Assembly (NCBI RefSeq): GCF_000236405.1
Contig: NC_016621.1
Span: 471,001 to 535,000 of the forward strand
Reading direction: 5' to 3'
Length of the DNA: 64,000 bases
Source: Blattabacterium sp. (Cryptocercus punctulatus) str. Cpu
GTDB lineage: Bacteria > Bacteroidota > Bacteroidia > Flavobacteriales > Blattabacteriaceae
Every line of letters begins with the position of its first letter. Position 1 is the stretch's first letter. Under the pieces are notes generated by a model. The model was not told the DNA's origin, did no database searches, and saw only the letters and a program-made list of their open reading frames with translations. Both the position numbers and the translations under genes were made by a program. Shown in pieces: positions 687 to 60,442 of the stretch.

Positions 687-1484
687 TCATAATAGAGTAT
701 CCAAAAAAATAAATAATAATATAAAATTCCAGGATCTCAAAATATTTAAAATTGGATAATCTGTTAAATCAAATTTTATAGGAACAATAGAAACGTATCC
801 ATTTTTTAATGCCCATTCATCCGTATCCGATTTTTTATCAAAATTAATAAAATCTCCAATTAGCCAATAATAAGTTCTTCCTTTTGGATTATAACGTTTA
901 TCAAAACTTTCTTTCCATTTAGATTCTGCCTGCCTGCATATTTTCATTCCTTTTATTTTTTTTTTTGGAATATTGACATTAAGACTAATACCCCCTTTTG
1001 GTATAGGATTATAAAGAATTTTTTTTACAATTTTACATACATATTTTTTAGCTGGTTCAAAATCTGCATTCCAATCAAAATCCAAAAGAGAAAAACCAAC
1101 AGAAGGTATTCCCTCAATTCCAGCTTCTATTACTGCAGAAATTGTTCCAGAATACATAATATTTATGGAAGAATTAGATCCATGATTAATTCCAGAAACA
1201 CAAATATCAGGTTTTCTTGGAAGTATATTACTAATAGCTAATTTTACACAATCAACAGGAGTTCCTGAACATTCCCATTCTTTTTGACATCCATTGTCTA
1301 TTTGGACAGAATCACAATATAAAATAGTATCCATCGTTATAGCATGTCCTATTCCAGATTGAGGCTTATTTGGAGCAACAACATAAACTTCTCCTAAAGA
1401 ATTCATAACATTAACAAGAGCTCTAATACCTGGAGCTATAATTCCATCATCGTTTGTTACTAAAATAATTGGTTTATTTTTCAT
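687..1484 (-). CDS. surE: 5'/3'-nucleotidase SurE
   Basis: Survival protein SurE, a metal-dependent nucleoside monophosphate phosphatase. The N-terminus carries the family signature VTNDDG (residues 9-14) with the metal-binding Asp pair, and the middle has SGINHGSN, the second metal/phosphate loop. ATG at 1484 is preferred; an in-frame TTG four codons upstream is less likely. The C-terminus runs about 12 hydrophobic residues (ILLFIFLDTLL) beyond the usual end near 'SWN', reaching into the start region of ruvB, perhaps after loss of the original stop. It is divergent from prc, and the first bases of the gene lie inside the 108-bp tandem duplication. Confidence 0.93.
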   Translation of the reverse strand: MKNKPIILVTNDDGIIAPGIRALVNVMNSLGEVYVVAPNKPQSGIGHAITMDTILYCDSVQIDNGCQKEWECSGTPVDCVKLAISNILPRKPDICVSGINHGSNSSINIMYSGTISAVIEAGIEGIPSVGFSLLDFDWNADFEPAKKYVCKIVKKILYNPIPKGGISLNVNIPKKKIKGMKICRQAESKWKESFDKRYNPKGRTYYWLIGDFINFDKKSDTDEWALKNGYVSIVPIKFDLTDYPILNILRSWNFILLFIFLDTLL

Positions 1485-1697
1485 TTTTTCATACAAGGAT
1501 ATAAATATTTGTAATTTTATTATTTATTAATCAGTATCAGAATGATTGTAGATTTTAAATTTAAAAATATAATAATTGGTTTTATTTTTCATTTTTTCAT
1601 ACAAGGATATAAATATTTGTAATTTTATTATTTATTAATCAGTATCAAAATGATTGTAGATTTTAAATTTAAAAATATAATAATTGGTTTTATTTTT
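1473..1697. repeat. 108-bp tandem duplication spanning the surE/prc divergent promoter region
   Basis: Positions 1473-1589 and 1581-1697 are identical except for one G/A difference (1540 versus 1648), at an offset of exactly 108 bp. The 9-base word TTTATTTTT occurs at 1473-1481, 1581-1589 and 1689-1697, so it is the probable microhomology of the duplication. The unit contains the surE start, the whole intergenic region and the first 16 codons of prc. The upstream prc copy (ATG at 1542) runs into a stop after 26 codons, so only the downstream copy is functional. Confidence 0.97.
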
Positions 1698-3749
1698 ACT
1701 TTTTTATTAAGTTTTTGTTCTCCAAAAGGAGAAGTAGAAAATCATAGTATTATACTAAAAAAAATATACAAAATACTTTATTTTTTACATCCTATTCCTA
1801 TTAAAATTAATAATGATTTTTCCAAAAAAGTATATAAAAAATATTTTGAAAATTTAGATTTTCAAAAACGTTTTTTTCTTAAAAAAGATCTAGAATATAT
1901 CTCTTACTATAGAGAAAAAATAGATGATTATTGGATAAATGGGGACCCCATATTTTTTAATATTACGATAAATCGTTTTTATCAAAGAATAAAAGAAGTG
2001 GAAAATTTTTGTTTTAAAATTTTAAAAAAACCTTTTGATTTTAATAAAAAAGAAATATTTGTTCCTGGAGAATATAAATATTTTTATCCTAAAAATAAAG
2101 AAGAATGGATAGAAGAATGGAGAAAATATTTAAAATATTTAACTCTTATGGAAATAGTAACTTCAATAAATACAAAAAAAAATTTTTTTAAAAATTACAA
2201 AAAAAATATTTGGAATAATCTATTTATTAATAAAGAAAAAAAATCGAGAAAAAAAGTGGAAGAGGATCTACGGGAATATTTCAGAAAATTAAAAATGAAA
2301 AAAAAAATAGACTGGTTTTCTATGTACGTAAATACTATTATATCTCATTATGATCCTCATACTATTTATTTTTCTACTAAAGAAAAGGAAAATTTTGATT
2401 TGAATATATCTGGTAAAACAGAAGGAATTGGCATTGAATTGAAAGATTATAAAGGTTATGCAACGGTTGTAAAACTTATAGTTGGTGGACCTGCATGGAA
2501 AAGTAAAAAGATAGATATAGGAGATAAAATTATTCGAGTAGCAAAAAATCCAAATTCAGAATCTCAAAATATTATAGGAATGTTATTAGAAAATTCCGTT
2601 CGTCTTATAAGAGGGAAAAAAGGAAGTAAAGTAAAATTAACAATTCAAAAAAAAAATGGTTCTATAGAAGAAGTTATCATTATTAGGGATATAATTGAAA
2701 AAGAAGAAATTTTCGCAAAAAGTGTCATATTATTGGATAATAATAATAAAAATAAATATGGTTTAATTCATTTGCCAGAATTTTATTTTAATCCTGAAAA
2801 TAAAAATGGAAGAAATGCAGCTAAAGATATGAAAAACATTATTCAAAAATTAAAAAAAGAAAAAATTAAAGGTCTTCTTATTGATATAAGAAATAATGGA
2901 GGAGGATCTTTAGAGACTGTTGTTAAAATTTCAGGGTTTTTCTTAGGAAAAGTTCCAATAGTACAAGTAAAACTATCTTCTGGAAAAAAGAAAATTATCA
3001 AAAATAAGGAGGATAATATCCTTTGGAAAGGACCTCTCGTTATTCTTGTAAACGAATTATCTGCTTCTGCATCAGAAATACTAGCGGCTTGTATAGTAGA
3101 TTATAAAAGAGGGATCATAGTTGGTAGTGATCAAACATACGGTAAAGGTACGGTTCAAACATTTTATCCATTAAAGTCATTTTTATTTTCTAATAATGAA
3201 TTGGGTACTTTAAAATTTACCATGAATAAATTTTATCGTGTAAATGGAAGTTCTACTCAATTAAAAGGCGTAAATTCAGATATAGTAATCCCAAATAATA
3301 ATGTTTCTTTTTCCATAAAAAAAATGGAAAAAGACAAACCTAACTCCATGATATGGGATCGTATTGATTCTATTCCTTATATACCTTGGAAAGGTAAAGT
3401 AGATTTGGAAAAAATAAAGTTAAAAAGCCTAAATCGTTTGAAAAAACATCAGGATATAAATACTATATATAAAAATATACAATTATTCGAAAAAAAATTT
3501 ATAAAAAAAAGAAATTTTTCTTTAAATTGGAAAGAATTTTATTATGATAATTTAAAAATAAAAAAAAGAAACGAAAACTTTCAAAAATTAAAAGATTACT
3601 TAAATATATATGGATTGAAAGCATATCCTCCATCTTACAAAATTATTTCAAAATATAAATTGAAAAAAAAAGAGTGGGAAAATAATTTATTGAAAGATTT
3701 TCAGATAGCAGAATGTGTAAATATTTTACGAGATTTTAATGAAAATTAA
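1650..3749 (+). CDS. prc: C-terminal processing (tail-specific) protease, S41 family lipoprotein
   Basis: Periplasmic S41 serine protease that degrades or trims proteins from their C-termini. A signal peptide with a lipobox (LSFC, Cys near residue 24) predicts a membrane-anchored lipoprotein. A PDZ domain follows around residues 255-330 (TEGIGIELKDYKG, GGPAWKSKKIDIGDKI). The catalytic domain contains LLIDIRNNGGGSLE, the Ser motif NELSASASEI (Ser about residue 473) and the Lys motif YGKGTVQ about 25 residues later. At 699 aa it matches full-length Prc/Tsp including the C-terminal DUF3340-like region. The start at 1650 is the second of two duplicated copies; the first is truncated. It converges on gyrA. 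Confidence 0.93.
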   Translation: MIVDFKFKNIIIGFIFTFLLSFCSPKGEVENHSIILKKIYKILYFLHPIPIKINNDFSKKVYKKYFENLDFQKRFFLKKDLEYISYYREKIDDYWINGDPIFFNITINRFYQRIKEVENFCFKILKKPFDFNKKEIFVPGEYKYFYPKNKEEWIEEWRKYLKYLTLMEIVTSINTKKNFFKNYKKNIWNNLFINKEKKSRKKVEEDLREYFRKLKMKKKIDWFSMYVNTIISHYDPHTIYFSTKEKENFDLNISGKTEGIGIELKDYKGYATVVKLIVGGPAWKSKKIDIGDKIIRVAKNPNSESQNIIGMLLENSVRLIRGKKGSKVKLTIQKKNGSIEEVIIIRDIIEKEEIFAKSVILLDNNNKNKYGLIHLPEFYFNPENKNGRNAAKDMKNIIQKLKKEKIKGLLIDIRNNGGGSLETVVKISGFFLGKVPIVQVKLSSGKKKIIKNKEDNILWKGPLVILVNELSASASEILAACIVDYKRGIIVGSDQTYGKGTVQTFYPLKSFLFSNNELGTLKFTMNKFYRVNGSSTQLKGVNSDIVIPNNNVSFSIKKMEKDKPNSMIWDRIDSIPYIPWKGKVDLEKIKLKSLNRLKKHQDINTIYKNIQLFEKKFIKKRNFSLNWKEFYYDNLKIKKRNENFQKLKDYLNIYGLKAYPPSYKIISKYKLKKKEWENNLLKDFQIAECVNILRDFNEN

Positions 3750-58528: not shown

Positions 58529-59647
58529 TTATGAAAACATTTCTCTAACACGATCAAAAAAAGATTTTTCTGAATTTCCAGGATGAGGAAAAAAATTTTC
58601 ATTTTTTCTCATTTTTTCGAAAAAATTTCTTTGTTCTTCATTAATTTTTTTAGGAGTCCAAACATTTACATGAATAAAAAGACTTCCATATCCATATCCT
58701 TCAATATTAGGTAACCCCTTATTTTTTAATCTAAGAGTTTTTCCTGATTGTGTTCCAGGATCTATTTTAATACGAGCCTTTCCATTAATAGTAGGAACTT
58801 CTTTTGAAGATCCTAATATAGCATCTGGAAATGATATGTATAAATCATAATGAAGATTATTCCCTTCTCTTTTTAATTTAGGATGAGATATTTCTTCAAT
58901 TAATACAATTAAATCTCCTGGAATTCCATTAAATGGAGCTTCATTTCCTTTTTCAGAAACTTTTAATTGAATCCCTTCTGTAAGACCTGCTGGTATTTGG
59001 ATATTAACTAATTCTTCTTCTCTAATCAATCCATGTTTATTTGCTCCATATGGAATTTTTTCAATATTTTTTCCAGTTCCAGAACAGATATTACATTGAG
59101 ACGTTGTTTGCATTCTTCCTAAAATAGTATTAGCTATATGTGTTATTTGACCTGTTCCCTTACAAGAAGTACAATTTTTAAATTTTACTCCTTGAGCTAC
59201 TTTAAGTCTTTTTACTTTAACTTTTTTTTCTATTCCATTAGCTATTTCTTCTAATGTAAGTTTTACTCTTATTCTAAGATCACTTCCCTTAATAGTTTGG
59301 TATTTTGTAGATTTTCCAAATCCAAAATTAGAAAATCCTTCACCAAATGCATCAGCAAAAATATCTCCAAAATTTGTAAAAATATCTTCCATATTCATTC
59401 CTGATCTACCAGAGCTACTACCTTTTATACCGGAATGTCCAAATTTATCATAACGTTGTTTTTTTTCTGGATTTCCTAATATTTCATAAGCTTCCGCAGC
59501 TTTTTTAAATTTTTCTTCTGCATTTTTTTTATTATCCGGATTTTTATCTGGATGATATTTAATTGCTAATTTTCGATAAGCTTTTTTAATTTCTTCTGAA
59601 GTAGCATTTCTAGAAATATTTAATACTTCGTAATAATCTTTTTTCAT
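58529..59647 (-). CDS. dnaJ: chaperone protein DnaJ (Hsp40)
   Basis: Co-chaperone of DnaK. The J domain (residues 1-70) has [10 protein letters not shown] with the HPD motif; a Gly/Phe-rich linker follows. The zinc region shows only two CxxCxGxG motifs (CTSCKGTG and CNICSGTG) instead of four, with the outer pair lost, as in other flavobacteria from memory. The C-terminal substrate-binding domains are intact ([20 protein letters not shown]). Length 372 aa. It follows grpE by 18 bases on the same strand. Confidence 0.95.
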
Positions 59648-59665: not shown

Positions 59666-60442
59666 TTATTTTCCGGTAATGACTTTAGCATGTCGTATAA
59701 CTTTTTCCTGTAGAATATATCCAGATTCTATAATTTCTATTACTTTTCCTTTTAAATTTTCTGTTAAAACTGGTATTTGTGTAATTGCTTCATGAAAATC
59801 GGTATTAAAATCATCTCCTTTTTTGATTTTAATTTTATTCAATCCTTTTTGTTTTAAAATTTTGATAAATTTTACCTGTATTAAATAAATTCCTTGAATT
59901 ATAAGTTCATTTTTTGACTTTTTAAGCTCTTTAAGACCTCGTTCAAAATCATCTAAAATTGGAATTAAATCTAGAATAATTTGTTGATGAACAGTTCTAA
60001 ATAGATCTAAACTTTCTTTTTTAATACGTTTTTTATAATTTTCAAATTCTGCAAAAATACGTAAAAATTTATCTTTTTCTTTTTCTAATTTTTCTTTTAT
60101 AATTTCTATTTCCTTTAATAGATTATCGTTAATTTTTTCCTTTAATAGATTATCGTTAATTTTTTCCTTTAATAGATTATCGTTAATTTTTTCCTTTAAT
60201 AGATTATCGTTAATTTTTTCCTTTAATAGATTATCGTTAATTTTTTCCTTTAATGGATTATCGTTAATTTTTTCCTTTAATGGATTATCGTTAATTTCTT
60301 CCTTTAATGGATTATCGTTAATTTTTTCCTTTAATGGATTATCGTTAATTTTTTCCTTTAATGGATTATCGTTAATTTCTTCCTTTAATGGATTATCGTT
60401 AATTTCTTCCTTTTTTTCAAATTTTTTTTGATTTATATTCAT
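59666..60442 (-). CDS. grpE: nucleotide exchange factor GrpE with expanded N-terminal 9-residue repeats
   Basis: Releases ADP from DnaK. The conserved core is at about residues 111-258: coiled coil EIIKEKLEKEKDKFLRIFAE, FENYKKRIKKE and the C-terminal beta domain (GDDFNTDFHEAITQIP, GKVIEIIESGYILQEKVIRHAKV). Residues 12-110 are eleven exact-length copies of a 9-aa unit, E(E/K)INDN(P/L)LK, six with Pro and then five with Leu. This replaces the usual short disordered N-terminus and lengthens the protein to 258 aa from about 180-200. All repeats are in frame. It is the first gene of a grpE-dnaJ pair. Confidence 0.95.
   Translation of the reverse strand: MNINQKKFEKKEEINDNPLKEEINDNPLKEKINDNPLKEKINDNPLKEEINDNPLKEKINDNPLKEKINDNLLKEKINDNLLKEKINDNLLKEKINDNLLKEKINDNLLKEIEIIKEKLEKEKDKFLRIFAEFENYKKRIKKESLDLFRTVHQQIILDLIPILDDFERGLKELKKSKNELIIQGIYLIQVKFIKILKQKGLNKIKIKKGDDFNTDFHEAITQIPVLTENLKGKVIEIIESGYILQEKVIRHAKVITGK
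60114..60410 (-). repeat. 27-bp minisatellite, 11 tandem copies, inside grpE
   Basis: Eleven head-to-tail copies of a 27-base unit with no spacers. On the plus strand each copy holds GATTATCGTTAAT. Variation is limited to two positions: AATAGATT versus AATGGATT (Leu or Pro) and TTTTTTCC versus TTCTTCC (Lys or Glu). The five promoter-distal copies are identical to each other, indicating recent expansion. Confidence 0.98.

Follow-up and report, generated by a model that had tools for sequence, protein, structure and literature searches.

A coding minisatellite in grpE

The grpE gene of the Blattabacterium of Cryptocercus punctulatus (genome code G000; a 605,745-bp chromosome, 609,561 bases in total) carries a 27-bp tandem repeat within its open reading frame, which raises the questions of how a reduced genome came to have such an array inside a conserved gene and of what, if anything, the array does for the encoded protein. 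The window analysed here is a 64,000-nucleotide stretch of this genome (NC_016621.1, positions 471,001 to 535,000), and in window coordinates the relevant features are:

58529..59647, minus strand: dnaJ, adjoining grpE on the same strand (open reading frame translation)
59666..60442, minus strand: grpE, predicted DnaK nucleotide exchange factor, 258 aa, ATG start (open reading frame, PF01025, PDB matches)
59669..60112, minus strand: conserved GrpE, the coiled-coil start EIEIIKEKLEKEKDKFLRIFAEFENYKKR... plus the globular part (alignment, AF2 helix 106-176)
60113..60409, minus strand: eleven in-frame 27-bp tandem units, E(E/K)INDN(P/L)LK, residues 12-110 (direct reading, TRF score 554)
60113..60247, minus strand: core-proximal block of five identical Leu-type units, EKINDNLLK (direct reading)
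60248..60409, minus strand: N-terminal block of six Pro-type units, EE/EKINDNPLK (direct reading)
60410..60442, minus strand: MNINQKKFEKK, the residues ahead of the array (alignable with relatives)

Judged by its sequence the product is GrpE, the predicted nucleotide exchange factor of DnaK: residues 96-257 match PF01025 with E=4.8e-34 (117.9 bits against a curated cut-off of 25.8), residues 108-257 match the solved GrpE structures 3a6m, 4ani and 1dkg, and the alignment, these PDB matches and the AF2 helix at residues 106-176 agree with the GrpE architecture of a long helix followed by a C-terminal DnaK-binding part. A full-length DnaK is also encoded in the genome.

The array accounts for 38% of the length of the protein and sits between MNINQKKFEKK and EIEIIKEKLEKEKDKFLRIFAEFENYKKR. 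Read directly on the minus strand and translated, it contains the eleven in-frame units with only two variable positions that a first-pass annotation of this DNA had described, at the residues it gave, although its nucleotide span (60114..60410) was off by one base. Units 1, 2 and 5 encode EEINDNPLK, units 3, 4 and 6 EKINDNPLK and units 7-11 EKINDNLLK, the variation being confined to position 4 of the unit (G in three, A in eight; E/K) and position 20 (C in six, T in five; P/L). Both of these changes are non-synonymous and the remaining 25 positions are identical across all eleven units, so that no synonymous difference occurs among them. TRF run on the window returned the array (period 27, 11.3 copies, 98% match) with the highest score in the window, 554, compared with a maximum of at most 99 in 50 second-order Markov versions of the window, and elsewhere in the genome the unit has no match within 3 mismatches. 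With 11 units of 27 bp at 98% match, a period that is a multiple of three and an open frame, this is a coding minisatellite, and its copy number varies between related genomes. The open-access literature searched turned up no earlier report of this GrpE array.

Another near-perfect tandem duplication in the window (108 bp, 2.2 copies, 97%) lies at 1464..1705, flanked by a surE-like gene on one side and on the other by a divergent tail-specific-protease-like gene, whose start region it covers; matches to it in two relatives, G040 and G012, cover part of it only, as if it were single-copy there.

Copy number and sequence turn over among close relatives

The comparison set comprised 49 Blattabacterium genomes including G000 (48 further), and grpE is present in all 49. 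A FastTree tree built from five concatenated proteins (dnaJ, trpS, mnmA, atpG and the conserved part of grpE) places G000 and G040 as sisters (0.999), with G012 next (1.000) and then G060 (0.996). Counting the repeat copies in related grpE genes, a check that the first-pass annotation had proposed, gave 11 in G000, 6 in G040 and 1 in G012, so neither copy number nor sequence is constant across relatives; this series, and the homogenisation of the units within each genome, back the earlier suggestion of recent slippage and block duplication.

The G040 array consists of four EKMDENSLK and two EKMDENPLK units. G012 has EKIHDNPLK once, in the context ...SFLKEKIHDNPLKEIEILKEKLEKEK, and a related single segment (e.g. 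KEIHDPLKKEIEFLK-like) occupies the array site in many other Blattabacterium. Each G000 unit uses ATT-AAC-GAT where each G040 unit has ATG-GA(T/C)-GAA, and the two arrays have no unit type in common. Because G040 has six diverged copies and G012 a single one, the array is, on this comparison, recent, lineage-specific and turning over, with both copy number and sequence altered after the G000-G040 split. Turnover is faster than that split, since no unit type is common to both arrays: either one unit was expanded separately in G000 and G040, or an older array was fully turned over in each.

The conserved part of GrpE, in turn, is evidently under purifying selection, with a dN of 0.026 and a dS of 0.10 between G000 and G040, figures that cover this part of the protein, the number of sites in the units being too small for such a test. 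Between the same sisters the unit consensus differs at 3-4 of 9 residues, while the conserved part differs at 9 of 146 (Fisher p 0.023-0.003, on small numbers). Ahead of the array, the segment IPSTNDLYKK is kept in G040 (IPSTSDLYKM in G012) and lost in G000 (cf. 60410..60442), so the N-terminal border of the array appears to have been remodelled too. We considered a pre-existing direct repeat with 27-bp spacing in G012 (TTAAAAGAAA / TTAAAGGAAA) as a seed and rejected it: although it agrees at 9 of 10 bases, spacings of 15 and 45 bp fit at least as closely in so A-rich a tail. We likewise discarded a missing RecA or MutS as the cause, since both families have matches.

The GrpE tail is a recurrent site of expansion

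Surveying 20-kb stretches around grpE in the 49 genomes (980 kb; at least 3 copies, TRF score of at least 80 and at least 90% match) we found grpE-tail arrays in G000, G040, G002, G001 together with G063, and G004, which by the tree and the unit sequences we judge to be four origins. G002 has 36-bp rows within a 36/51-bp array (unit CCQEEIDK...), G001 and G063 have 12-bp units encoding NTEK, and G004 has 12-bp units encoding KKTE. The other 97% of the 980 kb held one array, of 27 bp and 5.1 copies, in an HU-like gene of G048. Four of five array origins therefore lie in grpE, which makes up 3.0% of the 980 kb (binomial 4e-6, or 1e-4 for three of four when the window's lineage is left out), in a test that does not separate tail tolerance from a GrpE-specific cause, as the neighbours of grpE presumably lack long disordered tails for the most part. 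The independent arrays have only a charged, polar composition in common and no common sequence motif, NTEK and KKTE containing no hydrophobic residue at all, and 43 of the 49 genomes are without such an array, typical GrpE tails being ~60 residues long. With a slightly looser filter, samples of ~200 kb each from G000 and G040, plus the window, yielded besides the window's array only a 10-bp × 5 run in G040.

Sequence comparison thus points to the GrpE tail, and not this repeat, as what recurs: unrelated in-frame arrays occupy it in at least three further Blattabacterium lineages, and it seems to be a region that changes quickly and tolerates differences in length while the rest of the protein is conserved. 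This repeated, independent lengthening of the tail elsewhere by unrelated units is a point absent from the first-pass annotation.

Three of the surveyed loci call for separate remarks. In G002 (L159 8870-9754) a single N separates two copies of the array together with its upstream flank, a doubling that probably arose in scaffolding and that makes the assembled copy number unreliable; the second survey row for this genome is the same array repeated around the N and was not counted separately. The G048 array (L196 19199-19335) is perfect, lies near the end of the HU-like DNA-binding protein and encodes TDSVKKNVP, another nine-residue repeat. The grpE frame of G059 (L179) has no ATG ahead of the usual tail, and its N-terminus, GYQSKKQLKKQ, is aberrant, which a frameshift or an error of sequencing close to the start might explain.

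Beyond Blattabacterium, grpE-tail arrays are present within the same family in two more genera of reduced symbionts: one includes G064 (27 bp × 4.0, LKSEKDEKD) and G177 (12 bp × 16.6, LNKD), the other G192 (39 bp × 2.8, KSKSDDIKKSDIN). We dropped G064 and G177 as added support for grpE-specific expansion, as coding arrays are common throughout both genomes, with many in other genes of their 200-kb samples. Minisatellites, coding and non-coding, occur throughout these samples (L245-L264), among others in genes that by sequence resemble RpoN, PDH E2 and a sigma-54 regulator. Among 81 flavobacterial loci we found no grpE-tail array, and a seemingly longer GrpE elsewhere in Flavobacteriales (the 292-codon frame of G116, the only longer one in the sample) was set aside, its extra length being upstream frame only and the ORF one of 208 aa without a repeat. 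The first-pass view of coding minisatellites as rare in reduced endosymbionts thus fits the Blattabacterium stretches sampled here, yet it fails as a general rule, given the many in G064 and G177 and those of Blochmannia tolA (PMC4389277).

A tolerated disordered tail is the favoured explanation

If the array were to lengthen the coiled-coil stalk of GrpE, its hydrophobic positions should form a stripe along one helix face. A nine-residue period corresponds to 2.5 helical turns, however, which turns these positions by 180 degrees with every unit so that they alternate sides, and the helical hydrophobic moment is accordingly ~0.05 at 97-103 degrees in the array as opposed to 0.44-0.59 in the stalk that follows; in addition, six of the eleven units contain proline. 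An AF2 run, on a shallow alignment of 31 rows (mean pLDDT 58.7), gave a pLDDT of 40-49 at residues 1-70, as against 85-87 in the conserved stalk (residues 111-130). The location of the array directly upstream of the stalk and its richness in E and K would suit an extension, as would the helix that AF2 places at residues 71-93 within the Leu-type block, but this helix has a pLDDT under 60 and possibly reflects no more than some helical tendency of that block. From composition, helical phase and model confidence we read the array as a disordered arm ahead of the conserved coiled coil and regard a longer stalk as extremely improbable, because the array has no coiled-coil stripe and is modelled with low confidence. 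Of the two structures that the first-pass annotation had entertained, the structure prediction it proposed thus favours the disordered arm over the coiled-coil extension. An assembly error is about as improbable: array copy number is error-prone, and the G002 array with its flank was doubled around a single N, but the sister G040 has a different array of the same period at the same site, with another unit sequence and the frame kept, although the assembly could still have the number of copies wrong.

Selection for DnaK control is an alternative of a different kind, in which repeated hydrophobic spots such as NLLK would serve as extra low-affinity pseudosubstrates, or a longer arm would extend the reach of the tail, GrpE in either case speeding the release of substrate from DnaK. 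An effect on DnaK is plausible by analogy, because the array lies in the region corresponding to the E. coli and M. tuberculosis tails, and to this extent the possible relevance to DnaK binding that the first-pass annotation had raised is backed. In E. coli, the 17-IIM-19 stretch of the disordered GrpE tail makes transient contact with the substrate site of DnaK, whose peptide affinity GrpE cuts ~ten-fold in a tail-dependent manner, with apparent KD values at 22 C of 1.11 uM with GrpE, 0.21 uM with tail-less GrpE and 0.10 uM for DnaK alone (PMC12915176); in M. tuberculosis, removal of the tail blocks substrate release (PMC10803776). The genome encodes the full-length DnaK to act on, the same tail was lengthened several times independently, and the five core-proximal units have gained an adjacent Leu-Leu, NLLK with its Asn and Lys flanks being the only adjacent hydrophobic pair in the array, where most Blattabacterium GrpE tails have no such pair. 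Against this, the G040 array has no Leu-Leu, the independent arrays share no motif and two of them are devoid of hydrophobic residues, and most Blattabacterium manage with an array-free tail, which makes selection for DnaK control unlikely in our view. We would give slightly less credence still to its broader form, that across flavobacterial insect symbionts the GrpE tail is a recurrently expanded, selected regulatory arm tuning DnaK substrate release; if true, lineages would independently lengthen the tail with unrelated charged repeats, in cells needing chaperones against unstable proteins.

Tolerance and turnover instead make a slippage-made, nearly neutral coding minisatellite in a disordered GrpE tail the probable explanation. 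One ancestral nine-residue segment just ahead of the coiled coil (EKIHDNPLK in G012) would have been duplicated in this lineage, presumably by replication slippage or unequal exchange, and the duplicates then multiplied and homogenised to give the 11 copies of G000 and the 6 of G040. The array would persist mainly since the tail tolerates in-frame length change, and as a side effect the longer charged tail may alter tail competition for the DnaK substrate site. What is observed directly in this sequence of events is the G012 gene with its one copy, the two arrays that have diverged, the frame-keeping 27-bp unit and the conserved rest of the protein.

These proteins, which carry 1, 6 or 11 tail units or an unrelated array on a near-constant core, form a natural GrpE series that could test tail length and content in DnaK substrate release. 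The array further marks where a conserved gene of a reduced genome tolerates length change, and could serve as a length marker for the symbiont populations of Cryptocercus.

Comparison with known systems

Like the GrpE tails of E. coli and M. tuberculosis, the tail described here precedes the coiled coil and is charged and poorly conserved in sequence (PMC12915176, PMC10803776); those tails are ~33-44 residues long with no repeats reported, whereas this one has ~110 residues, mostly in tandem units, and lacks the IIM motif of E. coli. The grpE tails of G064, G177, G192, G002, G001, G063 and G004 resemble it in that they too contain charged units repeated in frame, but their units are unrelated to this array, and in G064 and G177 arrays are found genome-wide. 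In the ant endosymbiont Blochmannia, tolA contains coding tandem repeats of 81-102 bp in 4.4-6.5 copies, and there, as here, one conserved gene of an insect endosymbiont with a reduced genome contains an array of in-frame length, with unit and copy number varying among species and one relative lacking it (PMC4389277). TolA is an envelope protein, however, whereas the array in Blattabacterium occupies the N-terminal disordered tail of an essential cytosolic co-chaperone.
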